From a virus: DNA of 63,745 nt. The stretch's first letter is position 1, and each line of letters opens with the position of its first letter. A program made the translations under genes and the position numbers. The notes beneath the pieces were generated by a model. It saw only the letters and a program-made list of their open reading frames with translations, was not told the origin of the DNA and made no database searches. This document shows positions 735 through 47,474 of this stretch, piece after piece. The stretch is taken from the IMG/VR virus record IMGVR_UViG_3300032164_000012, positions 1-63,745 of that record; one strand, 5' to 3'.

Positions 735-1127
735 GTGGCTGACAAGCTCGATGTCTACGAGGATCGTTACCAGTACCGGATCGCCTGGTTCTTCCAGGAC
801 GAGGACGACGACATGGGCGGCATCCTCGGGAAAGGCGGCGAGCACTTCACCGAGAAGGATCTGAAGAAGGCCGGGGCTGATTCTCGTCGTCCCGACAGTG
901 ACGGCGACGACGACTGGGAACACATCAAGGCCTCGATAGCTGTGATGAACTCGCCAGGCATCGAGCGGGACTCGAAGGGCTTTTTCTGGAAGTCGAAGAA
1001 GGATGCCCTCAACGCCCTCAAGATGGCCAAGGCAGCGATACGCGACAAGAGCGACAAGCCCTGGCCACTGTGGGCGATGCAGGCGCAAGCGGCCAGATGG
1101 AAGCCCCCGAAGGGGTGGACACCCTAG
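735..1127 (+). CDS. Hypothetical acidic protein
   Basis: 130 aa starting at GTG 735 behind a good SD (GGAGGTG). It is rich in Asp/Glu near the N-terminus (FFQDEDDD) and in Trp near the C-terminus (PWPLWAMQAQAARWKPPKGW). The stop TAG 1125-1127 overlaps the GTG of the macro-domain gene, so the two are translationally coupled. No family recognised. Confidence 0.65.
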   Translation: MADKLDVYEDRYQYRIAWFFQDEDDDMGGILGKGGEHFTEKDLKKAGADSRRPDSDGDDDWEHIKASIAVMNSPGIERDSKGFFWKSKKDALNALKMAKAAIRDKSDKPWPLWAMQAQAARWKPPKGWTP

Positions 1128-1633
1128 TGCGGCGCGCCGAGGGAGACCTCTGGGTCTGGCTGGGCAAGGCGTGGATCGTCGTGCCGACCAACATCGGCTG
1201 GGGGCGCGTGCCTCCGAAGGACGACGCCTACGCTCGCGTCGGTCCCAATCCCATGAAGGCGGGGGTGGCGCTAGGCGTCTCGGAGCGATTCCCAGTGCTA
1301 CCTCTGCTGTACGGGCACTTCTGCCAGCTCCAAGGAGCCAGTACGCCCGTAGTCTACACGGATGAGGGCCTGATCCTCTTCCCGACGAAATCGCTCAAGG
1401 TCGACGCGCCCTGGAAGTCCTGGGACCAGAAGGCGTCGCTGGAGTTGCTCCGCCGCAGCATCAACGAATTGACGCTGCTCCAGTTGCCGGATGACCGCGA
1501 GGTCGCGCTGCCCTTGGTCGGTTGCGGAGCCGGCAAGCTGGCCAAGAAAGCAGTGTTGGACGAGCTGAAAGTCCTGGGGGACCGCTTCGTCCTTGTCAGT
1601 CAGCCGGTCAAGACGGAGCCCCTCCCATTCTAG
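1127..1633 (+). CDS. Macro-domain protein, DarG/TARG1-like ADP-ribosyl hydrolase candidate
   Basis: 168 aa from GTG 1127, which overlaps the previous stop (TAGTG); the frame is open further upstream to 1070, but one-base coupling is the local habit. Seen: an early strand ending in Asn (IVVPTNIGW), a loop NPMKAGVALGVSERFP, the motif FPTK (Lys about 88) and PLVGCGAGKL (about 128-137). This order matches macro domains of the DarG/TARG1 branch, where the Lys of the TK motif attacks ADP-ribose on DNA thymidine or on glutamate. Inference: it removes ADP-ribose from phage DNA or proteins. The protein ends TEPLPF. It sits close to an ADP-ribosylglycohydrolase and a NADAR gene. A pure ADP-ribose binder is possible. 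Confidence 0.72.
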   Translation: MRRAEGDLWVWLGKAWIVVPTNIGWGRVPPKDDAYARVGPNPMKAGVALGVSERFPVLPLLYGHFCQLQGASTPVVYTDEGLILFPTKSLKVDAPWKSWDQKASLELLRRSINELTLLQLPDDREVALPLVGCGAGKLAKKAVLDELKVLGDRFVLVSQPVKTEPLPF

Positions 1634-1648
1634 CGACCATGTGGTCGC
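1633..1648. repeat. Dispersed palindrome GCGACC-ATGT-GGTCGC (copy 1)
   Basis: 16-bp element with 6-7 bp arms, beginning on the last base of the macro gene stop and lying 13 nt before the ATG of the next gene, whose SD (GAGG) directly follows. One of seven related copies. Confidence 0.85.
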
Positions 1649-1660
1649 AATCGAGGACCG

Positions 1661-1858
1661 ATGACCAAAGCCAAGCAGCATGAGTGGGACGTGAGATACT
1701 TCAACAGCAAGCTACTTGGGGGTATCAGCGCCATCGTGAAGGCAAGGCTGTCGAAGCTCGAGGGGGAGGGCTGGGAGGTATTCTCAATCTTCACTCCAGG
1801 AGAAGCCCTGATAGGGGTAGTGGTGCGAAGGACAAAAAAGCGGTGTGGCACGACCTGA
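1661..1858 (+). CDS. Small hypothetical protein
   Basis: 65 aa; C-terminal pattern GEGWEVFSIFTPGEALIGVVVRR resembles small beta-rich DUF4177-like proteins (strand, turn, strand around a WEV motif), but this is a weak likeness. It lies behind palindrome copy 1 and a GAGG SD. Its TGA overlaps the next ATG (TGATG). Confidence 0.6.
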   Translation: MTKAKQHEWDVRYFNSKLLGGISAIVKARLSKLEGEGWEVFSIFTPGEALIGVVVRRTKKRCGTT

Positions 1859-2187
1859 TGTGGAAGCAGGCCCCTTGGGCCGTTGGTGGCTTCGCAATCG
1901 CCCAGGCCGTCGCCTCCAGTCGAGAGCCTGCATGGGTAGCATTCTTGTGCCTCAGCACCTTCGCCCTCATCGTCCTGCGCATGGTCGGCCAGAATCACCG
2001 GACGCTGATCCGGATCACCTGCGCGTGCTGCGGACAGACTGCCCTGATTAGCTGTCGCCCCGAAGAGACAGCCGAGACCGTCCGGATCTTCGTACCAAGG
2101 ACGTGGATGTGGGCACAAGGACCGGCACAAACCGAGGTCCAAGTCTGTTGCTACGCCTGCAAAATTAGAGTCGAACAGAGGTCTTGA
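1858..2187 (+). CDS. Small membrane protein with Cys pairs
   Basis: 109 aa from ATG 1858, coupled by TGATG. Residues about 5-45 form two hydrophobic segments (WAVGGFAIAQAVA and WVAFLCLSTFALIVLRMV) that can span the membrane. The following domain has CACCGQ and CCYACK, a possible zinc site facing the cytoplasm. No family recognised. Confidence 0.65.
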   Translation: MWKQAPWAVGGFAIAQAVASSREPAWVAFLCLSTFALIVLRMVGQNHRTLIRITCACCGQTALISCRPEETAETVRIFVPRTWMWAQGPAQTEVQVCCYACKIRVEQRS

Positions 2188-2212
2188 CAATCACCTACCT
2201 GTTTGCTACATT
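2184..2212 (+). promoter_or_regulatory. Promoter of the TTGACAATC family
   Basis: TTGACA 2184-2189, 17-bp spacer, TTGC-TACATT with -10 at 2207-2212. It overlaps the end of the membrane protein gene and drives the ADP-ribosylglycohydrolase; a clear SD (ACAGGAGG) follows. Confidence 0.8.
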
Positions 2213-2229
2213 AGAGACAGGAGGATCGA

Positions 2230-3327
2230 GTGGGCAAAGATCGAGCACGAGGCACCCTGATGGGCCAGGCGGTAGGGGACGCCCTGGGAACGACCCTCGA
2301 GTTCCGCCATCTTCCCCACCAGCCCTGGGGAGCTTTCAAGGCTCCCTACCGCCCTCTCGAGGGCAAGGGACCGTTCGGGCTCGATCCTGGCCAAGTGACC
2401 GATGACACCCAGCTCGCGGTCGCTCTGGCCTGCAGCCTGATGGAGCGGAAGAGAATCGATCCGGTCGACCTCATGGACCGCTACGCGGCTTGGCGGCATG
2501 GGGCGTTCGATGTTGGCGGCCAGACATCGGGAGCGATCAGCTCCTACGAGGCTGCTCACAAGGGCAGGGGGATCTTGAAGGACCAGGCGGCCGTGACGGC
2601 TGGTCGCCAGTCCTGGGCCGGCGGAGGCCGTAGGAGCGCCGGCAACGGCAGCTTGATGCGTACCTCGCCTCTAGCGGTCTTCATGGCAGGGCAAGGCGCA
2701 CAGGCCCTCCGGTGGGCCGCCCGCGAGGAGTCGGCGACCACCCACGCCGACCCCAGGTGCATGATCGCCTGCGCGGCCTTCGACAGCGCCATCGCCTACG
2801 CGCTCACGCACCCGCACGCGACACGGGAATCGATGCTGATCGCCGCCAGTTTCGCGATAGCCGATTCCCGAGCTGACATGCTCGACCAGATCAAGGACGA
2901 CATCTTCACCAAGGAGGAGATTGAGACAGCAGCCGCCCAACTAGACCTCGATCTCTGCATGGCGCTCGAGCCAGACCCCCTCCTCTACGACGAGCAGTTA
3001 TGGGAGAAGGACGACATGCTGAAGCGGGTCACAACCTCTCTCGACATGCACGGGTCACAGGGCTTCGTCCGGGTGGCCTTCCGCCTAGCCTTCTGGGAGC
3101 TGATGCACGCCCCGACCTTCCAGGCCGGACTCATCGACTGCGTTGATCGTGGTGGAGATAGCGACACGAACGGAGCCATCGCCGGAGCGTTGCTGGGGAG
3201 TTGGTTCGGTGAGAAGGCGATCCCCGCCGAGTGGTGCAGCCAGGTCATGAGCGCCCTCAAGGACAAGCCGGATTCTCGCTGGTGGATGACCTACCACCCG
3301 AGGCTGATGATGGAGATGGTCTCGTGA
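2230..3327 (+). CDS. ADP-ribosylglycohydrolase (DraG/ARH family)
   Basis: 365 aa, GTG start with SD ACAGGAGG. Family hallmarks are all present: GQAVGDALG near residue 12, TDDTQ (about 57-61) and the C-terminal DRGGDSDTNGAIAGALLG (about 307-324), which supply the two-metal site in DraG/ARH enzymes. GNGSLMR (about 141-147) is also typical. Known role of the family: hydrolysis of ADP-ribose from Arg, Ser or other acceptors. It has its own promoter, and the next gene overlaps by GTGA. Inference: it reverses a host ADP-ribosylation or recycles ADP-ribose, with the macro and NADAR genes nearby. Confidence 0.92.
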   Translation: MGKDRARGTLMGQAVGDALGTTLEFRHLPHQPWGAFKAPYRPLEGKGPFGLDPGQVTDDTQLAVALACSLMERKRIDPVDLMDRYAAWRHGAFDVGGQTSGAISSYEAAHKGRGILKDQAAVTAGRQSWAGGGRRSAGNGSLMRTSPLAVFMAGQGAQALRWAAREESATTHADPRCMIACAAFDSAIAYALTHPHATRESMLIAASFAIADSRADMLDQIKDDIFTKEEIETAAAQLDLDLCMALEPDPLLYDEQLWEKDDMLKRVTTSLDMHGSQGFVRVAFRLAFWELMHAPTFQAGLIDCVDRGGDSDTNGAIAGALLGSWFGEKAIPAEWCSQVMSALKDKPDSRWWMTYHPRLMMEMVS

Positions 3328-3662
3328 CACTCACAGTAGACATCGTCAGTGCGCTAGCCGTCGGAATTCATCCGGCCTGGCTACTAGAGGTGAAGACACT
3401 TGAGGAGGCGGAGACACAAGCCGTGGCCGAGAACGCCCCGCACCGTGCCGACCGCCTCACCCGAGGAGGCCACCCTCCGGACGGGCCGTTCATGTTCGCG
3501 CAAGCGGAGTGGGAGCGCTTCAAGACCAAGCTTCAGCCCGGGGACGAGTTGTGGAGCTTCTGCTCTCCAGCCGCGACATGGCAGAGCCTGAGCGGGCGCG
3601 CGGGCTACTGCATCCTCCGAGGAGAAGTTCTGATCGCGGCTTTCGTCACCCGCCTCAACTAG
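3324..3662 (+). CDS. Hypothetical protein following the ADP-ribosylglycohydrolase
   Basis: 112 aa from GTG 3324 (GTGA overlap with the previous stop; the frame is open upstream but that part is a shadow). The sequence contains FMFAQAEWERFKTKLQPGDELWSFCSPAATWQ, suggesting a compact alpha/beta protein. Its coupling to the hydrolase suggests a shared role. No family recognised. Confidence 0.65.
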   Translation: MTLTVDIVSALAVGIHPAWLLEVKTLEEAETQAVAENAPHRADRLTRGGHPPDGPFMFAQAEWERFKTKLQPGDELWSFCSPAATWQSLSGRAGYCILRGEVLIAAFVTRLN

Positions 3663-3676
3663 GAGACCGGCACGCC

Positions 3677-3705
3677 TTGACAATCGGCCGGCAACCGGCT
3701 ACAGC
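3677..3705 (+). promoter_or_regulatory. Promoter of the TTGACAATC family (leaderless type)
   Basis: TTGACA 3677-3682, 17-bp spacer, -10 TACAGC 3700-3705. ATG follows at 3712, six bases beyond the -10, and no SD fits between. Confidence 0.7.
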
Positions 3706-3711
3706 AGACGC

Positions 3712-4116
3712 ATGGCGGACATCAACATTGCGGAGCTGGCGACTCTGGGGGCACAGATCGCCGAGCTGGGGATGAAGCTCGCGGAGATGCGGGCGCGACG
3801 GGAAGCGGTGAACGTGGAGATCTTGGCGGTGGAGAAGGACCTCCTACCCCTCATCACCAAGCACGCCCAGCTGATCGCGTCCATCACCGGCCAGGTAGCA
3901 CAGATCCCGCAGGTCTTCCCGACGGTGCAAGCCGTGCCGACCGCCCTCCCAGGTACCCCGTCGTCTGTCACCTCCAGCAATCCCTCGAAAGAACGCATCG
4001 TCCAGTACCTCAAGCGGTGCGAGCCGGGGTCTTCTGCGCTCGAAATCGCCGAGCAGATTCACGTCGATCCCACCCTGGTCCGCGAGGTAATGGCAGACTT
4101 GCGACGCGGCGGCTAA
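3712..4116 (+). CDS. Coiled-coil protein with C-terminal winged-helix-like domain
   Basis: 134 aa. Residues 5-65 are heptad-rich (AELATLGAQIAELGMKLAEMRARREAV) and should form a coiled coil. A Pro/Thr/Ser linker follows (about 70-92). The last 45 residues (SKERIVQYLKRCEPGSSALEIAEQIHVDPTLVREVMADLRRGG) have the layout of a winged helix, so it may be an oligomeric DNA-binding regulator. Probably leaderless. Function inferred from pattern only. Confidence 0.65.
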   Translation: MADINIAELATLGAQIAELGMKLAEMRARREAVNVEILAVEKDLLPLITKHAQLIASITGQVAQIPQVFPTVQAVPTALPGTPSSVTSSNPSKERIVQYLKRCEPGSSALEIAEQIHVDPTLVREVMADLRRGG

Positions 4117-4139
4117 TGTCCGTGCTAGGATCGACTACC

Positions 4140-4472
4140 ATGAGGATCTTGGTGGTCGACCTCAGCGAGGCTCGCCGCAAGAGCTTCGAGGAGAAGCTGA
4201 TCGACCACCGAGTCGTGATGGCCGACAACTATATCGATGCAGCCCTGATGCTCGAGCTAACCCCGCGCTTCGACCTGGTCTACCTGGACCACGATCTCAA
4301 ACCAAAAACCGGTCTGGACCTCATACGGTTCGTGACTTCCAACCTGATGATCGACCGATGGCCTCGTCGGGTCATCATCCATTCACAGGACAACCTGGAA
4401 TCCAGGCGCATCAAGTATGCTTGCGACCTGGCTGGAATCTGGTGCCTGATCCGCCCCTTTCCTCCCTCTTGA
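4140..4472 (+). CDS. cREC-type receiver-like protein
   Basis: 110 aa from ATG 4140. It has a receiver-like fold pattern: MRILVVDLSEARRKSF, then LVYLDHDLKPKTGLDLIRFV and RVIIHSQDN. The LDHDL motif is typical of the cREC (cyclic-phosphate-processing receiver) family rather than of phospho-accepting receivers. Immediately upstream lies an extended -10 (TGC-TAGGAT, 4123-4131) without a good -35, so it may be leaderless. It sits between ADP-ribose enzymes and may act on a nucleotide or RNA phosphate; that is inference. Confidence 0.65.
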   Translation: MRILVVDLSEARRKSFEEKLIDHRVVMADNYIDAALMLELTPRFDLVYLDHDLKPKTGLDLIRFVTSNLMIDRWPRRVIIHSQDNLESRRIKYACDLAGIWCLIRPFPPS

Positions 4473-4497
4473 CAATCCTCCATGAGATTGCTATAGT
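4469..4497 (+). promoter_or_regulatory. Promoter of the TTGACAATC family (leaderless type)
   Basis: TTGACA 4469-4474, 17-bp spacer, -10 TATAGT 4492-4497, the NADAR start codon at 4504. Only AGGGAC separates the -10 from ATG. Confidence 0.8.
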
Positions 4498-4503
4498 AGG
4501 GAC

Positions 4504-4944
4504 ATGACGAGCCCCCTCGTGATCAATAGCTTCTCCGGCAAGTACGGCTTCCTCAGTAACTTCTATCCCTGTGTAGTCACCTTTGAGGGCAAGAGCTACC
4601 CATCCACGGAGCACGCCTTCCAGGCCGCCAAGACCTACAACCCGATCGAGCGCAACCTGATCGCTCTAGCCAAAACACCGGCTGACGCTAAGAAGCTCGG
4701 ACGCAAAGCCCAACTCCGCCCCGATTGGGAACAGGTCAAGGACGACGTGATGCGAGAGCTGCTCTGGCAGAAGTTCCAGATCACTGAGATGCGCTATCGC
4801 CTTCTCGACACAGGCGACGCCGAGCTGATCGAGGGCAACCACTGGAACGACACCTACTGGGGGGTTTGTGATGGCAAGGGGGCTAACCGCCTCGGGCAGC
4901 TTCTGATGGAGGTTCGTGGCCTCCTCCCTCCCAGCCTGTTGTAA
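4504..4944 (+). CDS. NADAR (YbiA-like) ADP-ribose/riboflavin N-glycosidase
   Basis: 146 aa, the full length of the family. Hallmarks: FSGKYGFLSNFYP (about 6-18), YPSTEHAFQAAK (about 33-44) and GNHWNDTYWGVCDGKGANRLG (about 111-131). NADAR proteins include YbiA, acting on riboflavin intermediates, and the antitoxins of DarT1-type systems, which remove ADP-ribose from guanine in DNA. Expression should be strong and leaderless from the promoter at 4469. With a macro domain and an ARH enzyme nearby, a role in removing DNA ADP-ribosylation is more likely than riboflavin metabolism, for which there are no other genes here. Confidence 0.88.
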   Translation: MTSPLVINSFSGKYGFLSNFYPCVVTFEGKSYPSTEHAFQAAKTYNPIERNLIALAKTPADAKKLGRKAQLRPDWEQVKDDVMRELLWQKFQITEMRYRLLDTGDAELIEGNHWNDTYWGVCDGKGANRLGQLLMEVRGLLPPSLL

Positions 4945-4974: not shown

Positions 4975-5205
4975 ATGCCTGCGGGTATCCGGACCTTGAT
5001 CGAACAGCTACGTACTCTCCTGGAGAATGACGCCGAGGCGGTGGCTAGGGAAGAGATGAACAGCCATCGAGAGAAGATGGCCAAAGCGCAGCAGCGGGGG
5101 GATACTCAGGCGGCGCAGTACTGGCAGAAGCTTGCCATGGACAAGCTGGGCGAAGTCCAAGCTCTGCGGGCCGCCAAGGCGAAGACGGTCAAGCCACAGA
5201 CATAG
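4975..5205 (+). CDS. Small helical protein
   Basis: 76 aa, almost entirely predicted helix (LIEQLRTLLENDAEAVAREEMNSHREKMAKAQQRG). Likely leaderless. Its stop overlaps palindrome copy 2, and the only minus-strand gene converges on it from the right. Function unknown. Confidence 0.6.
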   Translation: MPAGIRTLIEQLRTLLENDAEAVAREEMNSHREKMAKAQQRGDTQAAQYWQKLAMDKLGEVQALRAAKAKTVKPQT

Positions 5206-5220
5206 CGACCACATGGTCGC
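5205..5220. repeat. Dispersed palindrome GCGACC-ACAT-GGTCGC (copy 2)
   Basis: Begins at the last base of the preceding stop and lies between two convergent genes. No U-tract follows on either strand (AAAT follows on +), so it is not a standard terminator. Confidence 0.85.
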
Positions 5221-19317: not shown

Positions 19318-19911
19318 ATGAGCAAGAATGACGTGATCGTCCTCAGCAGCGCAGTTCCTACCTCTGTCCTGCCCCTCACAGGGTCAGACATCATGCTGAA
19401 GCCGGTCGACCAGATGACTCCCATCGAGGCCGCTCAGGCACATCTGGCGCTGAAGCTCGTCGACGAAATGCTGGAAGAGCGCCTCGGAGCACTCCGTGAG
19501 AAGCTGCTCGACGTGGCACTCAAGGAGGGCAAGCTCACTGACAAGGGTGGGCACCGCTACGACTTCGAAGGCATCCGCGTGCTGCGCGAACGCCGAGAAG
19601 AGAAGAACCTCAAGGTCGAGAAAGTGGTCGACTTGCTCAAGGAGAAAGGAATCGATATCGGCGAAGGCTGTGATGAGATCAAGAAGCTTGTGGTCAACAT
19701 GAGCAAGATTCAGAGTCTCGTCGAGATCGGCAAGTTGGCCAAGACAGACATCGACAGCATCACCGGCATCACCATCGCTCTCAAGATCTTCCCTTCCGAC
19801 GAGATAAAAGCGATCCTCGAGGCAGCGCGCGAAGCACACGCGATATCGTCGTCAGATGTCGCCCAGCCGCTCATCGAGGGGGATAAGGTCAAGATGGCCA
19901 GGAAGAAGTAA
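19318..19911 (+). CDS. Helical protein opening the MoxR/VWA operon
   Basis: 197 aa from ATG 19318 (AAGGAGG SD); the frame extends upstream but through the promoter. Mostly helical and charged (EAAQAHLALKLVDEMLEERLGALREKLLDVALKEG; YDFEGIRVLRERREEKNLKVEKVVDLL). The pattern resembles phage proteins with a GGHRYDFEG turn, but no function is known to me. Probably a partner or substrate of the ATPase encoded next. Confidence 0.65.
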   Translation: MSKNDVIVLSSAVPTSVLPLTGSDIMLKPVDQMTPIEAAQAHLALKLVDEMLEERLGALREKLLDVALKEGKLTDKGGHRYDFEGIRVLRERREEKNLKVEKVVDLLKEKGIDIGEGCDEIKKLVVNMSKIQSLVEIGKLAKTDIDSITGITIALKIFPSDEIKAILEAAREAHAISSSDVAQPLIEGDKVKMARKK

Positions 19912-19921
19912 CGAGACGCTG

Positions 19922-20764
19922 ATGCCGATGTCTAAGCGATACATCAAAGCCGAGAAGTGGAATGTACCAGAGCCCCTGCAGTACCTGGACGTGTTCGGTC
20001 TGCACAAGCTCTATGACGCCATCGCCTTCAAGGCGAACCTCATTCTGGCGGGACCGCCAGGCATAGGCAAGACGTTGTCCGTTGCGTCGTGGTGCCAGAA
20101 GCACGCGGTCCCCCTCATTCCGTTCGACTGCTCCGAGGACGTGCGCCGAGCGCAACTCTACGGAGCACGGACGATCGAGGATGGGTCCTCGCCGTTCCTG
20201 CTGGGCGCGATCCCTACGGCCATCGAGGTCGCCAATGACGTCGGGATGGCGGTCTTGAATCTGGAAGAGATCAACGCTCTCAAGCCGGCCAACCAGAAGG
20301 GCTTGAACTCGATCACGGACTTCCGACGGGCGCTGGCCTTGCAAGAGGCAGAGGAGGTGTACCGTCTCAAGAAGAATTCCAAGCTCTGGATCGTCGGCAC
20401 GATGAACTTCGCCGTCTACGGGGGCGTCTACGCGCTCAACAACGATCTGCGTAGCCGTTTCCGCATCTACCCACTGCGCTACCCGACTGCCGAGAACGAA
20501 AAGAAAATCGTCGTCGAAGTGTTGGGAACTGACGGTGCCGGAGCACCCTACATCGACAAGGTGATCCTGCTGGCACACCAAACTCGACAAGAAGCGCTGG
20601 AGTACCAACTGGCCACCCGCGATGTAGTCCAGATCATCCAGGACATCGGGAACGCCGGCCTCGAGACGGCGATGCGCCTCGCCCTCGGGAAGTTCGACGG
20701 CAGTGACCAGCAAACCTTCGCCAGCTGGGTGACCAGCATCTTCAACATCGATCTCTCGTTGTGA
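19922..20764 (+). CDS. MoxR/CobS-type AAA+ ATPase
   Basis: 280 aa from ATG 19922 (another ATG at 19928). Walker A AGPPGIGKT (about 42-50), a Walker-B-like NLEEIN, sensor 1 IVGTMN (about 158-163) and an Arg finger in LRSRFRIYPLRYP. Related to MoxR/CobS/GvpN ATPases, which remodel partners together with VWA proteins. The next gene, coupled by TGATG, encodes the VWA partner. In phages such CobS-like ATPases are known but their targets are not. The Walker B has Asn-Leu-Glu-Glu rather than Asp-Glu. Confidence 0.82.
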   Translation: MPMSKRYIKAEKWNVPEPLQYLDVFGLHKLYDAIAFKANLILAGPPGIGKTLSVASWCQKHAVPLIPFDCSEDVRRAQLYGARTIEDGSSPFLLGAIPTAIEVANDVGMAVLNLEEINALKPANQKGLNSITDFRRALALQEAEEVYRLKKNSKLWIVGTMNFAVYGGVYALNNDLRSRFRIYPLRYPTAENEKKIVVEVLGTDGAGAPYIDKVILLAHQTRQEALEYQLATRDVVQIIQDIGNAGLETAMRLALGKFDGSDQQTFASWVTSIFNIDLSL

Positions 20765-22701
20765 TGCGCGACTTTCTCCCCACACCAGCTCGCCTCCCCG
20801 TCGATCCGAGCCACTTCGAACTGTCCTCCCTGCGGCTTGACGCTGCCGGTCACCAGCAGGCTATCCTCCACAAGACCGTCGACACCTTCGCCGCGATCAT
20901 GCAGCGAAGACTGTGGCTCAAGAACAGCAATCGTGTCACGACCGACGGGACTGTGCTGTGCTTGCCGATCCACTCCGTCGACGCCTACTTGCGCCTGGAG
21001 GAGCTGCTGGCGCACTTGCTGTTCAGAACCGACGTGGTGGCCAAGCGGCTATTCGTCACGGAGTACGTTAAGCAGGTGGAAGCCGCGACGACCTCCGCCG
21101 GTCAGCCAGTCGACGCTGCCCGCCTGGCCTCCGGCCTGGACTGCTTGATCGACACCCTCGAGCACCACCGAGTCGTCTCCCTCTGGCGACGGCTCTACGA
21201 GGGGTCCTACGAGCGCATGCGGGCGCGCGAGCGCGCTGACGCGCAGGCGTTCGTGACGCGCGCACACACGAACATCCTGACCTACGCCTGCCTGCTCGGG
21301 ACCGCCATCGACATCCCAGCCGGTCCCTTGGACCGCTACCGGAACGTCATCGAGGATGCCTACCGCAAGGTAGAGGGGACCGACTTCGCCGCCACCCTGC
21401 TGGTAGCAAAGTGGCTGGTCGTCTCCCTGGTTTCAGAGGTTGTTCGGGGTGCTGGGAACCCGCTAGAGCAGGCCAAGGTCGTCCACGCCCCTAGCACCGC
21501 GCCAGAAGGCCCCAACGACCCCCAGGACGGCCCGAAAGAGCCTGACCAGGGGCAAGGTAGGGGGGAGGCACAGCGGCCTCCTGGGAGCCTACAGGAGCGC
21601 GCTGGAGCCCTCCAAGAGCTGCTGGAGACACTCGGGGACAAGGCAACCACGCGTAATCAAACACAAGTTCGGGTGGAAGAGTCCAAGTTCTCAGGGAATC
21701 CGTCGGACAGGTCCAAGAAGCCGTGCCGGAGCGCACTGGGGCTGGACGTGGGGGATCGTGAGGCGATGCAGACCGCCCTGCAGCGGGCGCGGGAACAGGC
21801 CGCTCAGCAGACCGATCGGGTCAAGGAATCGCTCCTCCATCCGAGCGCCCCTGACAATCGGCTGCGTCGAGACGCACCGGCAAAGGTGGTGTTCCGTGAC
21901 GTTGTCTCCACCGAGAAGCCGACACCACTCATGCCAGAAGACCAGGCGACGGTTGATCGGCTGCGCTCTCTGTTCGCGCTGGTGATGGGACAGCGCTCCT
22001 CAGACCTCGACGAGATCGGCAGCCGCATCGACATCGGAGCCTACATCGAACAGGCAACTTCCCGTCGACCAGGACCGTGCTTCGAGATCGACACCTCGGG
22101 AAGAGGTTTCAAAGTCCTGTTGCTACTCGATCGATCCGATTCGATGCAGGACGAAAAGAAAGCACAGGCCGAGCGAGCCTGTCGTGTCCTCGGACGAGCA
22201 CTCGACTACCCGTTCGTCAACCTCCACGTCTGGGGTTTCCAGTCTGTCGAACAAGGGCAAGTCGACATCACACGCTTCGACCGTCGACTAGAGGTGTTTG
22301 ACACTGAACACGTTCACGTCGGTGGCATGACGCCGCTCCACATTGCACTTCAGATTGCCGGCCGCTTCCTCGAGCTGGGTGACGAGACCAGGCACATCAT
22401 CGCTATCACCGACGGCTATCCGACGCACCGTCGGCGTAACGGCCAAGTGATCGGCACCGGACAGCTTATGCTGTTCGTGCGTGATGCGGTCCGGCACAAC
22501 CGCCAGATCGGCGTCAACACCTGTGGTGTGATGATCGGTTACGAGCGCCAAGCGCGCCTCTACTACGACACAAACGAGAAGCAGCTGCAGTTCATGTTCG
22601 GCAACCCGAAGTTCTGGCGGCAGGTCACTCCGGCGAAGCTAGGCCGCGATCTAGTCCGCCTCGTCGCCAACCTGTTCCTCTCGTACTTGGCGGGGGCATG
22701 A
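20764..22701 (+). CDS. VWA-domain (CobT/CoxE-like) partner of the AAA+ ATPase
   Basis: 645 aa from ATG 20764 (GTG 20761 also possible). The N-terminal 220 residues are helical. Residues about 230-300 form a Pro/Gln/Glu linker (GPNDPQDGPKEPDQGQGRG). The C-terminal third is a VWA domain with the full MIDAS: DRSDS (about 456-460), the Thr in GGMTPLH (about 519-525) and ITDGYP (about 548-553). MoxR-VWA pairs act as metal-chelatase or chaperone-like machines. Inference: it handles a host or virion target with bound metal. Confidence 0.82.
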   Translation: MRDFLPTPARLPVDPSHFELSSLRLDAAGHQQAILHKTVDTFAAIMQRRLWLKNSNRVTTDGTVLCLPIHSVDAYLRLEELLAHLLFRTDVVAKRLFVTEYVKQVEAATTSAGQPVDAARLASGLDCLIDTLEHHRVVSLWRRLYEGSYERMRARERADAQAFVTRAHTNILTYACLLGTAIDIPAGPLDRYRNVIEDAYRKVEGTDFAATLLVAKWLVVSLVSEVVRGAGNPLEQAKVVHAPSTAPEGPNDPQDGPKEPDQGQGRGEAQRPPGSLQERAGALQELLETLGDKATTRNQTQVRVEESKFSGNPSDRSKKPCRSALGLDVGDREAMQTALQRAREQAAQQTDRVKESLLHPSAPDNRLRRDAPAKVVFRDVVSTEKPTPLMPEDQATVDRLRSLFALVMGQRSSDLDEIGSRIDIGAYIEQATSRRPGPCFEIDTSGRGFKVLLLLDRSDSMQDEKKAQAERACRVLGRALDYPFVNLHVWGFQSVEQGQVDITRFDRRLEVFDTEHVHVGGMTPLHIALQIAGRFLELGDETRHIIAITDGYPTHRRRNGQVIGTGQLMLFVRDAVRHNRQIGVNTCGVMIGYERQARLYYDTNEKQLQFMFGNPKFWRQVTPAKLGRDLVRLVANLFLSYLAGA

Positions 22702-39762: not shown

Positions 39763-40434
39763 ATGTCCCGCCAATCCCCATCCGGCAAGCCGGCCAGTGA
39801 TCTGATCTTGTCGGCCTACGTGGGGACGAACGATGAGCTGTTCCCTCGCATCCTCAAGCTCTATGTTGCTCTCGGCAGCAAGGTGGCTGATGTGACGTTC
39901 GGGAACGGCACCTTCTGGAAGCAGATCCCGTCCGGAAGCTACGAAGTTCACGGCACCGACCTCCTCAAGGGTGTTGATGCTCGTCACCTGCCCTATGGCG
40001 ACGGCACGATGGATTGCGTGGTGCTGGACCCGCCCTACATGCACTCGTCGGGAGGGACCGCATACAAGGATGACCAGCACGCCGCCTTCGGGCGCTACCG
40101 GAACAACGAGGAGGTTCGCTCGTCGGACGGTCACCGCGATGTCCTGCAGCTTTACCAGGACTGCGCCGACGAAGCTCTGCGGGTCCTCCGTCGGGGAGGC
40201 GTACTCCTTCTCAAGTGCCAGGATGAGGTCGCGGTCAACCGGCAGCGTCTCACGCATGTCGAGATCCTCTTGGGTCTCACGAAAGACTGGATCTGTGAGG
40301 ACCTATTCGTGCTGGTTCGCCGGGGTCGCCCGAGCGTGAGCCGGCAACTCAAGCAGCTTCACGCGCGCAAGGCCCACAGCTACTTCCTGGTTTTGCGCAA
40401 GATTGACGGTCCGAAGGTCTGGACTGGACCGTAG
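39763..40434 (+). CDS. Solitary DNA methyltransferase
   Basis: 223 aa from ATG 39763. The catalytic motif is DPPYMH in CVVLDPPYMHSSGG (about 85-98), typical of N6-adenine or N4-cytosine enzymes, with a preceding SAM-site-like DVTFGNGTFW and later LRRGGVLLLKCQDEV. No restriction enzyme is nearby, so it likely protects phage DNA or marks it. Confidence 0.82.
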   Translation: MSRQSPSGKPASDLILSAYVGTNDELFPRILKLYVALGSKVADVTFGNGTFWKQIPSGSYEVHGTDLLKGVDARHLPYGDGTMDCVVLDPPYMHSSGGTAYKDDQHAAFGRYRNNEEVRSSDGHRDVLQLYQDCADEALRVLRRGGVLLLKCQDEVAVNRQRLTHVEILLGLTKDWICEDLFVLVRRGRPSVSRQLKQLHARKAHSYFLVLRKIDGPKVWTGP

Positions 40435-40441
40435 GAGACCC

Positions 40442-41272
40442 ATGACGCTTCCCCGTTACGAGATGAAGGCGCTCCCCATCGACTTGCTGGTTCCCAACGA
40501 TTGGAATCCTCAAGATCAGGACGAGGTGGTCTTCCAGCGTCTCGTCGACGAGATCGCCGAGAACGGTTTCATCGATCCGTGCGAGGTGATCCCCCTGGAG
40601 GATGGGCGCTACCGGATCATTGGCGGGGAGCACCGCTGGATGGCGGCCAAGGCAGCCCAGAAGCTTCTCGAGGAGGCGGGCAAGCCTGAAGATGCCAAGA
40701 CGCTAGACGACATTCCCTGCATGATCCTGACAGCCGACCGGTGGAAGGACGAGGATCTCCAGAAGTTCGTTACCATCCGCCTCAATGTCATTCGGGGCAA
40801 GCTCGACCCAGAGAAGTTCCTCAAGCTGTACGAGGAGCTGGCTGACAAGTACGGGGCCGAGTCGTTGCAGACCCTTATGGGCTATACCGACGCCAAGGGC
40901 TTCCAGAAGCTAGTCGACGGCGTTCGCAAGGGGATGCAGAAGGCGCTGCCGAAGGACCTGCAGGATGAGTTCGAGGATCGGGCCAAGGACGCCAAGACCG
41001 CCGAGGATCTGCAGCGGATCATCCAGATGCTGTTCGCCAAGTACGGCGACACCGTCGACCTCTCCTACATGATCTTCACCTACGGCAAACAGGAGCACAT
41101 CTACGTCCAGATGAATCCGGCGATGCGGAAGGCGATGGACAAGGTCGTCGCCTACTGCAAGATGACCTGCCAGGACATCAACGATTTCATGGTGCCGATC
41201 ACCCAAGCATTCATGAAGGAGGCCTTGGCGGCGCTGGAGAAGGGTGAGAAGTTTCCTGCTCCGTCCTCCTGA
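40442..41272 (+). CDS. ParB/Srx-fold protein
   Basis: 276 aa from ATG 40442 (SD AGGAGACC). IDLLVPNDWNPQDQDEVVFQRLVDEIAENGFIDPCEVIPLEDGRYRIIGGEHRWMAAK is a ParB N-terminal domain with the GEHR (GERR-like) box; a helical region follows (about 105-170). ParB-type domains bind CTP or DNA, and some phage versions are nucleases. No ParA is present. It could be the protein that recognises the dispersed 16-bp palindromes; that is a hypothesis. Confidence 0.78.
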   Translation: MTLPRYEMKALPIDLLVPNDWNPQDQDEVVFQRLVDEIAENGFIDPCEVIPLEDGRYRIIGGEHRWMAAKAAQKLLEEAGKPEDAKTLDDIPCMILTADRWKDEDLQKFVTIRLNVIRGKLDPEKFLKLYEELADKYGAESLQTLMGYTDAKGFQKLVDGVRKGMQKALPKDLQDEFEDRAKDAKTAEDLQRIIQMLFAKYGDTVDLSYMIFTYGKQEHIYVQMNPAMRKAMDKVVAYCKMTCQDINDFMVPITQAFMKEALAALEKGEKFPAPSS

Positions 41273-42170: not shown

Positions 42171-45100
42171 ATGGCCACTCTGCTGCACCCTGTGTCATCG
42201 GCGTTGATCTCGACCGACCAGCTGGTCGAAGCGTCGTCGAAGGATCTCTACCCTATCGGGACCATCAAGCAGTACGGGGCCAAGCACCTCTATGTCAAGA
42301 TTTCGATGGGCGGCAAGAAGCCCTGGGTCTACTACGCTACCCTCGGGTCAGCGAAGTCCAACGTAGCGATCACGGCGGGTGGTTGCATCGTTGTTGACGG
42401 CAAGGCCAAAGCGGCAGCGACTGCCGAAGAGGCGCAGAAGCTTGGTGTCCCTTACGCGCACCCGCACGCGGGAGGAGAAGTTCCGCCTCTGCTCCCTGGT
42501 GGTAAGACCTTGGGCAAGGTTGGTGCGGATGGGCAGTTTGCTGTTGATGCAGAGGGCCTAGCCGCCGCGCTGGTGGCCGGAACCGAGCCGCCGGCGGCCG
42601 TCCCCCCAGCCCCGCCTCCTCTGCCTACTGAGGGGCCACCACAGCCCGAGAGCCCGAAGGAGGAACCTCCACCTCCCATCACGTCCCTCAAGCCCTACGA
42701 GCAGCTACAGGCCGTGGTCGTCACTCCGACTCCGAAGATCAGCAAGATTCTCCAGAGATCGATGATCGCCAGTGACAGTGCCTATGGCAAGTTGCTCGCC
42801 AATATCGAGATGCAGGGGTGGAACGCCTCTGAAGCGTCGAGCTGGTTTCAGAAGTTCGGATACGACTCGGCGCAAGCCGATGAAATGGTGAGTGGGGCAC
42901 TGGCACAGGTCGCTAGTTACCTCACAGTCTCAGTCGACGATGGGGCGATCTACTTCCGTAATCCGGACTACGTTGATTGGGACAAGAAGCTCAAGGCAGT
43001 CGGAGCAAGCGGCTTCTTTGGCCCGAACGGTGTCCTCACTCATCTTCTCTCTATCGAGGGCATTCCGGAGATCTCGCTGGCGAACCCCCTCGACTCCCTC
43101 GTCGCCAATCCGAAGGTCGTTCCCTACCTCGGAGGCAAGTACGGTCCGGACTGGCGAAAGAAGGTGGATGCGGCTTGGGTTGATCATGCTCTTGAGCACG
43201 AACTGGCTCCTCCGTCGGACCCCGAGGTGCTGAAGCATCTGCACAAGGCCGGGTTCGATCCCACTACTCCACTCGGGAAGGTGGCCGGACTGGTCGTCAA
43301 GAACGATGGTGCGACGATCGCTACCATCAAGGACTTGCGGGCCTCCGGTGGCTACACGATGGCTCTCGGCCTCGCCAAGAGCCAGGTCGACGCGGTGCTC
43401 CCGATCTTGAAGAATGCTGGGGTCCTCGTCGATGGCAAGGTGGTCAAGGAAGCGCCGCCTGTTACCCCACCAGCACCTTCGGTCCAGGCAACTCCATCGA
43501 CCGCGCCGACAGCAGAGAAGAGCGAGCTTCAGACGCTCGTTGGGTTCCTCAAGGGGGTCGGCTTCGACAAGCCGGACGTCGCCCAGTCGTTGTCGGCGAG
43601 CAAGATCTTCTTTGACCACATGGTCAAGACGTTCGGTCCGGACTGGCTCCAGAAGTACCAGACGCAGATCACCCCGTCACTGGCCGGTACGAAGCCTCCC
43701 CCGCCCCTTCCTGCTGGTGCTGACCCTAACGACTACACCCTCAAGGTCAGCAAGACCGGAGCGCAGTTCTGGTCGGCGAAGCCAGGAAAGAACATCGCCA
43801 AAGCCATCGCTGCAGCGAACAAGGGCAAGAAGCCTGGAGCGCAGTTCGGTGGTGTCGACTACAGCGACGTCAAGTCCCACTTCGGAGCGATGTCGGCTGC
43901 TGGAGGATTGCCCGACACTCTCCCCGCCCCCTTCAAGAAGGAGATGAAGGACAAGTACGGAGAGAACTGGGCGGGCGTATTGACCGTGGCTGCTTCTGTG
44001 CATCTCGAGTTCGAAGGCGATGCGCTCAAGTACATCGCGCATATCGAGGATGACGCAGGCGCGGCTGAGCAGGTACTCGTCAAGTCGGCTCTCGGGCTTG
44101 CATGGAAAGCGCACGTCGAGGCGATCGGTGCGGCGCTGTCTGCGACCAAGAAGCCCAAGAAGAAAGTCGCGACGGGTGTGGCTCCAGTAGTTGCGGCAGG
44201 AGCTTCTCCTGCGACGATGGGCAAGCCCTCGCTGCAAGCAGTTTCGGACTACGCTGACTTGCACAATATCTCGACGCCTCAAGCGAAGATTCTCGAACTC
44301 CTGTACTCGCACGGAGTGGCACACACCCCAGCGTTCTTGAACGATGTGAAGGCGGTGTTTGCCCTTGGTGTTGGTGACGCCAGCCTCAAGAACCTGCTCA
44401 AGGCACATCTCAATGTCCTGGTGGACAAGGGTGTGATCTCCATCGATGACTACGGGAACGTTAGTTTTCCGTTGTCTGACCCGCTAGGGGGTTCGGTAGC
44501 AGCAGCCCTACCTAAGCTGAATCCAGCCGTTGATTTTGCTCTTGCTCCGTTGAGTCCGACCGTGAGTTCGTGGTCCGCTGCGACGGCAGGCCATCTTGGA
44601 TGGCCTCCGGATTCCGATGGGGCGAAGACGTTGGCGGTGATGTACAACGCGTTCCAGAAGGACAGCACCGTCGATCCGTCGGTGGCCGTCAAGGCGCTGG
44701 TCAAGCTGGGTATCCCGTTGGCCCTAGCCACCCCACTTGTCAACGTCGCCTACAACGCGGCAAAGGAACCGATCGCCGCTCTGGCACACCAGTTCGAGAC
44801 GCCTGGAGAGAAGTCTCCGATCCCAACCACCCCTCCCGAGACTCCAGCCCCTCCGGTCAACACGCCACTTCCGATCGAGAAGCCCGCTCCGGCAGTTGCT
44901 CCGACATCGCCGGCTCACGGTACTACGCCGCTCGTGGCTGGCGGAGGGCTCCCTCCGATGTCGCAGCTCAAGCACAAGCGCAGCGCCGCTGGGCTAGGTG
45001 GAGCCGGTAAGAAGGACATCTATGTCGACAGTCAGGGACAGGAGTATCTGGTCAAGGTTGCGGTTGAGAAAGACGACCCGACCAAGGCTAAGCCTTATGC

Positions 45101-47474
45101 GGCTGCGATCCAGGAGGCTTTTGCCACGGTGGCTTTGGCGGTTCGGCCAGATCACATCCCTATCGCCGTTGGTGCTGTAGGCGGTAAGCCGGCCACGGTT
45201 CAACCTCTCATCGCTCGATCTGAGACGCCCACGCTGGAGGGGGTCAAGGTCACCAAGCTGTCAGATCAGGACAAGGCGGATGTGGCGACCGAGCATGTCC
45301 TCGACTGGCTGATGAGTCAGCACGACTCCTACTCGGGGAACTTCATTCGGCGCAAAGACGACGGGCGCATCGTCGGGGTCGACAAGGAACAGGCGTTTCG
45401 CTTCTTCCCGAATGACAAGCTCGATGTCGACTACAACCCCAACCCTATCGCCCCCTATTACAACGAGTTCTGGGGTGCGTTCCGCGACAAGAAGCTGAAC
45501 ATCCCCGATGCGGCTTGGGCGTCGATGGGAGAAGCCATCGGCAAGGTGGAGGGCATTTCCGACTCTGACTATGTCGACACGCTCGACAAGTATGCCAAGG
45601 CTCTCTACCCGAAGGAGCCGGCGAAGCGGTACAAGTTCCTTCAAGCGGCCGTCGAGCGCAAGCACGCGCTTCGCTCTGACTTCGAGGGATTCTTGACGGG
45701 GCTGCACCGCAAGCGTGAGGACAATGCCGTCGGTACTTTCACTTTCGCGCACGGCTGGGACGCGACCGGCAAGAAGGTTGCGGTCAACGTCAAGAAGAAG
45801 AACATCCAGAAGCTCTCGGCGGAGGAGTGGGCTATCCACGAGGGGATCAAGCCTTACGACTTCAAGCCAACAGACGGTCCCAATGCTGGGAAGACCGATC
45901 CTTCGAAGAAGACCCTCAAAGTCGCCAAGTCGGACCTCGCTGCCCAGGAGAAGCTCGAGAAGTTCATGAAGGACCTGGGGCTGAAGCCGATCGCTCCTCT
46001 CGTCGTTGGTGGCCAGTACCTCATGGCCTTCGTCAACACGGCTGACTACAAGGCGGTTTCGATCGAGAAGGAAATCGACCAGCCCATAGCGATCGACGCT
46101 GAAGACTACTCGATCGACATCGAGCTGAGTCCCCATGCGGTCGCGGACCTCAACAGCAAGGACTTGCACGAGCTGGATCACACCACACCGCTCGGGCCGG
46201 TTGGCAAGCGATACTCGGCTGGTGGGTTGGGTATTGAGGGGCAGACGATGAAGGCGAAGCGTATCGTCGACCCTGACGGCTCGCTCTCCTACCTCTTCTG
46301 CTTCAAGCTGCGTGGGCACCGCACAGCCAAGGGGAACTACTTCTCGACCACCGATGTCCCGAAGGGACAGCCGGTCGAGTATCACTTCCCTGGGCTGTCG
46401 TATCAGCCTGGAAAGGACGCTGTCGCCGACAAGGGCAACACAGTCTACAAGATCGACGACACCGAGAAGTGGGTCAATGGCGAGTCGACCGTCCACTTCG
46501 TTCGTTCGTCTGTTCAATTCGCCTTCATGGGATCGGTCTATGCGCGTGTGCGCCCGAAGGCAGGTCAGGCGGTCAGGGAGGCTCTGGCCGAGACCTTGGA
46601 CACGATGAAGCCCGGGCTCTCGAAGGAAGTGCTGCGCGATCCGACGCCTGAGGAGCAGGAAGTCGCCAAGCTCGCTCGTCTGCTGTGGGCGGTCGCGCCG
46701 CAGGAGTCCGACGGCCTGTCGAAAGAGGACTTCACGGTGGCCGGGCTGCAGGCGCGGCTGGCCAAACACAACTACGGGCCGGAGCACATTGCCAAGATCG
46801 AGGAGCACGAGACGTTCCCTGGCTTGCATTCACATGTCCTCCCAGGGCGTCACAAGAAGATGCCGCACAAGTTTCTCTTCCAGGGGCTTGGTGACACCGG
46901 CGTCGATGTAGCTGTTTCGGTGATGAAGGTTGGTCTCCTCGGTATCAATGAGCGAGCTACTTTCGGTATCAATCCTTCAGGGTCCTCGGTGGCTGCGGAC
47001 GTCCATTCGGGAGGAGGAGATCAGGCTCTCTTCAGGGCTGTGACTGAGAGTGGCTTCGGCGAATCTTTCCATGGTCACTTGGCCGCTGGGACGTACCAGG
47101 CGATTGTGCGGCCTGACGAGGTTGATCGCCTCGACAGCTACATGTTCCATGGGGATACCTACGGTTGTTGCAATCCTGACAATTCGAATGGGAGTTCGTG
47201 GAAGGCGCGCAAGACGGTCGAGGTGCAGATGAAGGCGCAGGCTTCGCACTACAGTACTGGTGCGGAGATCATGTTCCGCAAGGGTGTGACCAAGAGTCAG
47301 TTGGTGGCCATCACGGCATCGAGCGCGGCGGCTCGGACGAAGCTAATTAAGGCGGCCAAGGATGCAGGTGTGCTTGAGGTAAATGGGATTAGCATCGAGA
47401 GCTTTGTCGTAGTTGCGACGCAGCTCGGCGATGCTTATGCGAAGCTCAAGACGAGGTTGGAGAAGATCAAGTGA
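42171..47474 (+). CDS. Giant 1767-aa protein: kinase-like region and ART-like C-terminus
   Basis: Longest gene of the window, with its own promoter. Residues 1-925 consist of small helical modules separated by Pro-rich linkers (PPAAVPPAPPPLPTEGPP; PPEEPPPP-like). Residues about 930-1190 resemble the PI3K/HipA-like phosphotransferase fold: Lys in EYLVKV (about 958), a catalytic-loop-like QHDSYSGNF (about 1049-1057) and metal-loop-like VGVDKEQAF (about 1068). Residues about 1560-1710 resemble an ADP-ribosyltransferase: FLFQGLGDTGVDVAVSVMKVGLLG, a Gly/Ser-rich loop, then STGAEIMFRKGV with Glu about 1699. Both calls are by eye. Probably a multidomain effector, perhaps packaged like T4 Alt. Confidence 0.7.
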   Translation: MATLLHPVSSALISTDQLVEASSKDLYPIGTIKQYGAKHLYVKISMGGKKPWVYYATLGSAKSNVAITAGGCIVVDGKAKAAATAEEAQKLGVPYAHPHAGGEVPPLLPGGKTLGKVGADGQFAVDAEGLAAALVAGTEPPAAVPPAPPPLPTEGPPQPESPKEEPPPPITSLKPYEQLQAVVVTPTPKISKILQRSMIASDSAYGKLLANIEMQGWNASEASSWFQKFGYDSAQADEMVSGALAQVASYLTVSVDDGAIYFRNPDYVDWDKKLKAVGASGFFGPNGVLTHLLSIEGIPEISLANPLDSLVANPKVVPYLGGKYGPDWRKKVDAAWVDHALEHELAPPSDPEVLKHLHKAGFDPTTPLGKVAGLVVKNDGATIATIKDLRASGGYTMALGLAKSQVDAVLPILKNAGVLVDGKVVKEAPPVTPPAPSVQATPSTAPTAEKSELQTLVGFLKGVGFDKPDVAQSLSASKIFFDHMVKTFGPDWLQKYQTQITPSLAGTKPPPPLPAGADPNDYTLKVSKTGAQFWSAKPGKNIAKAIAAANKGKKPGAQFGGVDYSDVKSHFGAMSAAGGLPDTLPAPFKKEMKDKYGENWAGVLTVAASVHLEFEGDALKYIAHIEDDAGAAEQVLVKSALGLAWKAHVEAIGAALSATKKPKKKVATGVAPVVAAGASPATMGKPSLQAVSDYADLHNISTPQAKILELLYSHGVAHTPAFLNDVKAVFALGVGDASLKNLLKAHLNVLVDKGVISIDDYGNVSFPLSDPLGGSVAAALPKLNPAVDFALAPLSPTVSSWSAATAGHLGWPPDSDGAKTLAVMYNAFQKDSTVDPSVAVKALVKLGIPLALATPLVNVAYNAAKEPIAALAHQFETPGEKSPIPTTPPETPAPPVNTPLPIEKPAPAVAPTSPAHGTTPLVAGGGLPPMSQLKHKRSAAGLGGAGKKDIYVDSQGQEYLVKVAVEKDDPTKAKPYAAAIQEAFATVALAVRPDHIPIAVGAVGGKPATVQPLIARSETPTLEGVKVTKLSDQDKADVATEHVLDWLMSQHDSYSGNFIRRKDDGRIVGVDKEQAFRFFPNDKLDVDYNPNPIAPYYNEFWGAFRDKKLNIPDAAWASMGEAIGKVEGISDSDYVDTLDKYAKALYPKEPAKRYKFLQAAVERKHALRSDFEGFLTGLHRKREDNAVGTFTFAHGWDATGKKVAVNVKKKNIQKLSAEEWAIHEGIKPYDFKPTDGPNAGKTDPSKKTLKVAKSDLAAQEKLEKFMKDLGLKPIAPLVVGGQYLMAFVNTADYKAVSIEKEIDQPIAIDAEDYSIDIELSPHAVADLNSKDLHELDHTTPLGPVGKRYSAGGLGIEGQTMKAKRIVDPDGSLSYLFCFKLRGHRTAKGNYFSTTDVPKGQPVEYHFPGLSYQPGKDAVADKGNTVYKIDDTEKWVNGESTVHFVRSSVQFAFMGSVYARVRPKAGQAVREALAETLDTMKPGLSKEVLRDPTPEEQEVAKLARLLWAVAPQESDGLSKEDFTVAGLQARLAKHNYGPEHIAKIEEHETFPGLHSHVLPGRHKKMPHKFLFQGLGDTGVDVAVSVMKVGLLGINERATFGINPSGSSVAADVHSGGGDQALFRAVTESGFGESFHGHLAAGTYQAIVRPDEVDRLDSYMFHGDTYGCCNPDNSNGSSWKARKTVEVQMKAQASHYSTGAEIMFRKGVTKSQLVAITASSAAARTKLIKAAKDAGVLEVNGISIESFVVVATQLGDAYAKLKTRLEKIK

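Follow-up and report, generated by a model that had tools for sequence, protein, structure and literature searches.

A compact cluster of ADP-ribose-linked genes, including an ADP-ribosylglycohydrolase, in an uncultured tailed phage

The virus record IMGVR_UViG_3300032164_000012 of IMG/VR, analysed here over its whole length (63,745 bp, one strand; hereafter the window), encodes four ADP-ribose-linked families within 3.8 kb, all on the plus strand: a macrodomain (1127-1633), a DraG-type ADP-ribosylglycohydrolase (ARH; 2230-3327), a domain of the cREC family (predicted cyclic-phosphate-processing receiver; 4140-4472), and a YbiA-type NADAR (4504-4944). Each of these families, and their co-occurrence, is already known in phages; what is new is a compact cluster that contains an ARH, which we saw nowhere else among the loci and records examined. 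An earlier sequence-only reading had placed three ADP-ribose-removing enzymes in this region, and all three genes are confirmed at the positions given above, with normal coding composition. The GC1/GC2/GC3 values (G+C at the three codon positions) are 0.67/0.43/0.85 for the macrodomain, 0.64/0.50/0.80 for the ARH, and 0.59/0.39/0.78 for the NADAR, and their coding composition resembles that of the window's UvsX and capsid genes. The cREC is predicted to be a fourth ADP-ribose-linked gene, which that reading had missed.

In the 80 viral NADAR loci compared, an ARH never occurs within 10 kb of the NADAR gene, and 6 of these loci have a macrodomain (A4 profile) within the same distance. Of 14 ARH-bearing phage records examined, 4 also encode a NADAR, namely Serratia phage BF, two Erwinia phages grouped with it, and LR745208; Serratia phage BF and LR745208 have a Pfam macrodomain in addition. 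These last two genomes hold all three families, so the notion that phages possess only single erasers is wrong. Iyer et al. 2022 report that DNA viruses combine Macro with NADAR more often than expected by chance and that about 5% of jumbo phages, and actinophages sporadically, carry ARG (PMC9503650). Separately, a viral contig (L020, 10001-11745) has a TARG1-like macrodomain with a GCGLDRL motif close to a NADAR gene.

Four ADP-ribose-linked gene products

The ARH (365 aa) matches PF03747 along the full length of the profile (1-287/287, E = 1.9e-58, 198.9 bits against a cut-off of 26.2), and its closest solved structure is DraG (2woc, 8.6e-25). Metal-site and catalytic positions are present, i.e. 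E24, T57-D58-D59, D94, T171-H172, D310, D312, and T313; among these, we take E24, T57-D59, and D310/D312/T313 to be the metal-site residues and T171-H172 the TH motif. A binuclear metal site and a TH motif are given as features of the ARH family by Iyer et al. (PMC9503650). From these matches, we consider the family assignment strong. D94 aligns with the DVG motif of DraG, a match that is suggestive only and hints at a predicted arginine-ADP-ribose hydrolase activity.

The NADAR (146 aa) matches PF08719 (E = 2e-27, 96.9 bits against a cut-off of 35.1) and is closest to Escherichia coli YbiA (2b3w, 1.6e-24), and its profile match again makes for a strong family assignment. Residues E36, K43, K63, E110, D116, and W119 are conserved. 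Specifically, E36, K43, and E110 are equivalent to E43, K50, and E125, for which Schuller et al. describe roles in binding or cleavage (PMC11543638), and each is kept in no fewer than 87 of the 88 NADARs in the alignment. K63 is the K115 equivalent, a residue that almost every viral NADAR aligned shares. The sequence-only reading had likened this protein to NADAR antitoxins that erase guanine ADP-ribose. It is a NADAR, but not of the DarT1-associated kind: a YbiA-type Glu replaces the catalytic Asp (C7 D171), there is no N-terminal extension, and no DarT match was found in the neighboring open reading frames (ORFs) scanned. NADARs, a YbiA-type and a phage one included, do cleave guanine-ADP-ribose in vitro (PMC11125620).

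Between the ARH and the NADAR, the cREC domain matches PF20274 (E = 2.1e-8, 35.2 bits against a cut-off of 27). For members of this family, the predicted substrates are cyclic phosphates, both those on RNA ends and those of ADP-ribose derivatives (PMC7824862, PMC9503650).

The macrodomain (168 aa) is divergent, and taken alone its matches are weak, with Pfam Macro at E = 0.081, under the cut-off; other libraries give phrog_335 (2.3e-8), NCBIfam DarG (4.5e-4), and PADLOC DarG (3.8e-4). Its nearest relative, 46% identical and located on a 137-kb viral contig, matches Thermus aquaticus DarG (5m31) at 9.7e-5. A profile of these two sequences finds only two DarG macrodomains in the PDB (8.6e-5), and a profile of six sequences, one of which is a clear DarG-like phage protein, reaches DarG at 4.6e-31 and TARG1 at about 1e-11. 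An AlphaFold2 model built from 3 sequences has a predicted local distance difference test score (pLDDT) of 38.6, and one built from 9 sequences has a mean of 62.4. With the latter (pLDDT 62), Foldseek returns DarG 5m3e first (7.3e-7) and yeast Poa1p next, and VIA-align yields Z scores of 13.1 for Poa1p, 12.0 for TARG1, and 11.7 for both ALC1 and DarG. These relatives, the modest AlphaFold model, and the Foldseek matches place the macrodomain in the DarG/TARG1/Poa1p group, so that all three family assignments of the sequence-only reading hold.

The FPTK and GCGAG motifs it had pointed out are present, at residues 85-88 and 132-136. The macrodomain keeps N22, T87, K88, and the GCGAG loop, which correspond to N22, T79, K80, and the glycine loop of DarG (alignments A1, A3, and A4), i.e. 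to features that matter for ADP-ribose binding or thymidine-ADP-ribose cleavage (PMC5179494). A DarG-type protein in the full sense is not what we find, however. The pocket loop MGxGxA reads MKAGVA here, while the nearest relatives keep MGxG; an insertion of about 16 residues directly precedes this loop; the single-domain protein does not have the DarT-binding C-terminal domain of DarG; and the ORFs neighboring the macrodomain have no match to the DarT family. Without this domain and an adjacent darT, the protein is DarG-like and not a DarG antitoxin. As the first Gly of the GxG is a Lys and the DarT-binding domain is missing, thymidine-ADP-ribose cleavage is not to be assumed, and the Gly-to-Lys replacement in the pocket makes activity as such uncertain. 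This replacement, together with the insertion, would fit a non-catalytic ADP-ribose binder or a decayed enzyme, which is a possible but doubtful alternative, since neither the GCGAG loop nor the catalytic Lys, Asn22, or Thr87 has been lost and the coding composition is normal.

Directly upstream, a 130-aa protein of no known family (735-1127, plus strand) has a stop codon that overlaps the GTG start of the macrodomain, and the two are predicted to be translationally coupled. This protein has no match in Pfam or among phage records, and a single relative (E = 5e-12) in another NADAR-bearing viral contig (L078). A toxin-antitoxin pair of the two is unsupported, since the upstream protein matches no toxin family.

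Genomic setting and promoter-like sites

The source of the window is an uncultured tailed phage with a T4-type major capsid protein. The window also encodes a DnaB-like helicase, a DNA primase, a UvsX-like recombinase, a DNA polymerase, a ParB-like protein, a large terminase, a portal, and a prohead protease. No tail genes were seen among the window genes, no tRNA genes were found in the window, and an Rfam search of it gave no match. Relatives of the capsid protein (51-89% identical) occur in 36 viral contigs, the two longest of which measure 126 and 168 kb. These two sisters have counterparts for most genes between 17 and 63 kb of the window, in largely the same order, and none for the first 15 kb (1-15 kb). 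The window is therefore only a fragment of a genome, in which the erasers occupy a variable early region outside the conserved replication and head core; the absence of tail genes and the length of the sisters likewise make the genome look incomplete. We call this region early from its promoters and position only.

The window macrodomain, NADAR, and ARH were rejected as core genes of the lineage. The 36 capsid-related contigs have no NADAR or macrodomain match, though most are short and only the two long ones carry much weight for gene absence. ARHs are present only in these two (G001:40443-41330, L141; G007:57823-58680, L142), where they are too divergent to be detected by tblastn with the window ARH and do not have the Asp94 motif, which suggests that ARHs were acquired repeatedly in the lineage. 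Scans of viral contigs with the macrodomain, the ARH, and UvsX as single proteins found nothing, and scans of bacterial genomes with the capsid protein and the macrodomain gave no relative that would point to a host. Pfam scans of the window's likely genes revealed no ADP-ribosyltransferase (ART), KptA, sirtuin, TIR, Nudix, RNA ligase, or 2H family, so no ADP-ribosylating enzyme of the phage's own is seen in the sequence at hand.

The motif TTGACAAT occurs 16 times in the window, against 0.57 expected, always on the plus strand and each time followed by C. The resulting TTGACAATC sites lie at 331, 2184, 3677, 4469, 7002, 7687, 8390, 9381, 12163, 12539, 15793, 18040, 19250, 33565, 42133, and 47893. 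Every one is located just 5' of a gene, mostly with a -10 element of the form TGCTAnAnT (-10 after TGC), and the motif recurs in both long sisters (8 copies in G001 and 16 in G007), which makes these sites a putative lineage-wide set of sigma70-like promoters. Within the cluster, sigma70-like promoters precede the ARH (TTGACAATC...TGCTACATT, 2184-2212, plus strand) and the NADAR (TTGACAATC...TGCTATAGT, 4469-4497, plus strand), with the TTGACAATC site 35-46 bp upstream of each gene. A further promoter-like TTGACAATC site (3677-3705, plus strand) stands upstream of a gene for a 134-aa protein (3712-4116, plus strand) with weak C-terminal winged-helix similarity (HTH_24, E = 0.0025, below the cut-off). 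The macrodomain would be transcribed from a promoter farther upstream. The remaining gene of the cluster encodes a 112-aa protein of no known family (3324-3662, plus strand), whose start overlaps the ARH stop.

A near-perfect palindrome, GCGACCAYRTGGTCGC, is present in six copies (1633, 5205, 17998, 31204, 47945, and 62058; 0.15 expected), mostly at gene boundaries. The copy at 1633-1648 (GCGACCATGTGGTCGC) and that at 5205-5220 bracket the stretch from ARH to NADAR. The palindrome is absent from the sister stretches examined and is a possible operator or partition site; the ParB-like protein is encoded at 40403-41272. Elsewhere in the window, an AAA ATPase (AAA_5, 20761-22701) adjoins a protein with a weak VWA match (19856-20764), forming a MoxR/VWA-like pair conserved in both sisters, and a 1767-aa protein without known family (42171-47474), partly conserved in the sisters (about 38%), is encoded upstream of the DNA polymerase gene.

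A possible counter-defence role

We lean slightly towards a counter-defence role for the cluster, with action at least in part on macromolecules. Under this reading, a cassette of three structurally unrelated ADP-ribose hydrolases (macrodomain, DraG-type ARH, and YbiA-type NADAR) plus cREC, carried in the variable early region, would most likely be made early from host-type sigma70 promoters, and its enzymes would undo host NAD+/ADP-ribose-based antiviral chemistry in parallel. The ARH would strip ADP-ribose off proteins, at arginine or other sites, and perhaps off nucleic-acid phosphate ends; the NADAR would do so for guanine bases of DNA or RNA; the macrodomain would act on thymidine-, carboxylate-, or phosphate-linked ADP-ribose; and cREC would open cyclic phosphates of ADP-ribose derivatives. 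It is plausible that such a cassette cancels DarT- and ART-based defences. DarTG is antiphage and is countered by phages (PMC11481870), DarG cleaves thymidine-ADP-ribose (PMC5179494), and ADP-ribose on phosphate ends of RNA is cleaved by TARG1 and an ARH-like enzyme and not by NADARs (PMC11833690). The location of the block outside the conserved core fits what is expected of accessory conflict genes, and we also count in favor of this role that both long sisters carry an ARH of their own, very different from that of the window. The sigma70-like sites ahead of the ARH and NADAR, the recurrence of their motif in the sisters, and the Pfam scans without an ADP-ribosylating enzyme in the window add to this side.

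Several points weigh against a counter-defence role. Joint action of the four cluster genes is not a given, since the nearest relatives of each lie in different phages and the sisters keep only an ARH. In the macrodomain, DarG Gly28 is replaced by Lys44, a residue that none of the relatives aligned has there. Of four E. coli and phage NADAR types, only the DarT1-linked and EPEC NADARs rescued cells from DarT1, and K-12 YbiA failed (PMC11125620), so the window NADAR is of the type that failed. Lastly, as the contig is a fragment, the genome may encode an ART or an RNA-repair partner beyond its ends.

The alternatives overlap with the counter-defence reading and with one another, and the probabilities we attach to them do not sum to one. 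It is possible, if doubtful, that small ADP-ribose derivatives (cyclic ADP-ribose variants, ADP-ribose-1''-phosphate, or the 1''-2'' cyclic phosphate) are the main targets of the macrodomain, NADAR, and cREC, leaving only the ARH to act on macromolecules; host TIR, RES, or KptA-type enzymes, or RNA repair, would generate these derivatives. In the work of Iyer et al. 2022, such a role is proposed from genome context for phage Macro, NADAR, and Nudix, ARG is argued to prefer macromolecules, and cREC, which here sits between ARH and NADAR, is tied to RNA repair and cyclic ADP-ribose phosphates (PMC9503650). The macrodomain model also fits Poa1p, an ADP-ribose-1''-phosphatase, as well as DarG/TARG1 (Z of 13.1 vs 11.7-12.0), and phrog_335 is labeled a phosphatase. 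However, the Pfam-scanned window has no KptA, sirtuin, RNA ligase, 2H, or Nudix, the K88 and sequence-level matches of the macrodomain are DarG-like, and NADARs do not process RNA phosphate ends (PMC11833690).

Rather unlikely, in our view, is that unrelated accessory genes landed by chance in one variable early region and form no functional set. The sisters, with only divergent ARHs that do not have the Asp94 motif, do not conserve the eraser region, the ARH and NADAR have separate promoter-like sites, and no viral NADAR locus of the 80 has an ARH nearby, all of which is consistent with chance; against it stand four ADP-ribose-linked families in 3.8 kb with no other gene of this network found on the contig, the above-chance pairing of Macro and NADAR in DNA viruses (PMC9503650), and the 6 NADAR loci with a macrodomain in reach. 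About as hard to favor is the strongest form of the counter-defence reading, in which macrodomain, ARH, cREC, and NADAR came together as a dedicated cassette of complementary erasers directed against DarT2-like, DarT1-like, and protein ART defences at once. That the enzymes balance an ART of the phage's own (T4 Alt/Mod-like) encoded beyond the sequenced fragment is very improbable: the window is indeed a fragment, and Iyer et al. report early NADAR expression along with ARTs in several T4-like phages (PMC9503650), but no ART was found in the window, the sister contigs not having been searched for ARTs.

Should the enzymes act in parallel, as the counter-defence reading would have it, a single phage could escape ADP-ribosylation defences aimed at thymidine, guanine, and protein alike, and the cluster would lend itself to testing which linkages count in phage defence. 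It also bears directly on whether the targets of phage Macro and NADAR proteins are macromolecules or soluble ADP-ribose signals.

Comparison with known systems

The DarG macrodomain (T. aquaticus 5m3e; Mycobacterium tuberculosis 5m3i) and human TARG1, the best sequence-profile and Foldseek matches of the window macrodomain, share with it the macro fold, the FPTK catalytic lysine, N22, and the glycine loop, at about 22-24% identity; the window protein differs by Lys44 for Gly28 and the extra loop and, compared with DarG as the DarTG2 antitoxin, by having neither a DarT-binding C-terminal domain nor a neighboring DarT. The predicted fold fits yeast Poa1p, an ADP-ribose-1''-phosphate phosphatase, equally well (Z 13.1), at 12% identity. 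The window ARH has the full-length PF03747 and the metal and catalytic motifs of the DraG/ARH family (e.g. DraG 2woc, Tri1-type 6dre, and Streptomyces phage JackieB gp76), is 25-33% identical to full-length phage ARHs, and, in contrast to DraG, is not adjoined by a DraT or other ART. The NADAR shares E36, K43, E110, D116, W119, and the YbiA-type Glu with E. coli YbiA and phage NADARs (PF08719), is up to 57% identical to those of Xanthomonas phage AhaSv and others, and differs from both the DarT1-associated Asp type and the His type of T4 gp30.3.

At the level of the cluster, the Macro/NADAR/SLOG/cREC neighborhoods of Iyer et al. involve the same enzyme network in an early-region setting, while ARH is not described in the available text on such clusters (PMC7824862, PMC9503650). 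The closest parallels are two jumbo phages with several erasers, Serratia phage BF and LR745208, each of which holds Macro, ARH, and NADAR in one genome; distances of 13-160 kb separate the genes in those genomes of 357-485 kb, whereas in the window all are found within 3.8 kb.

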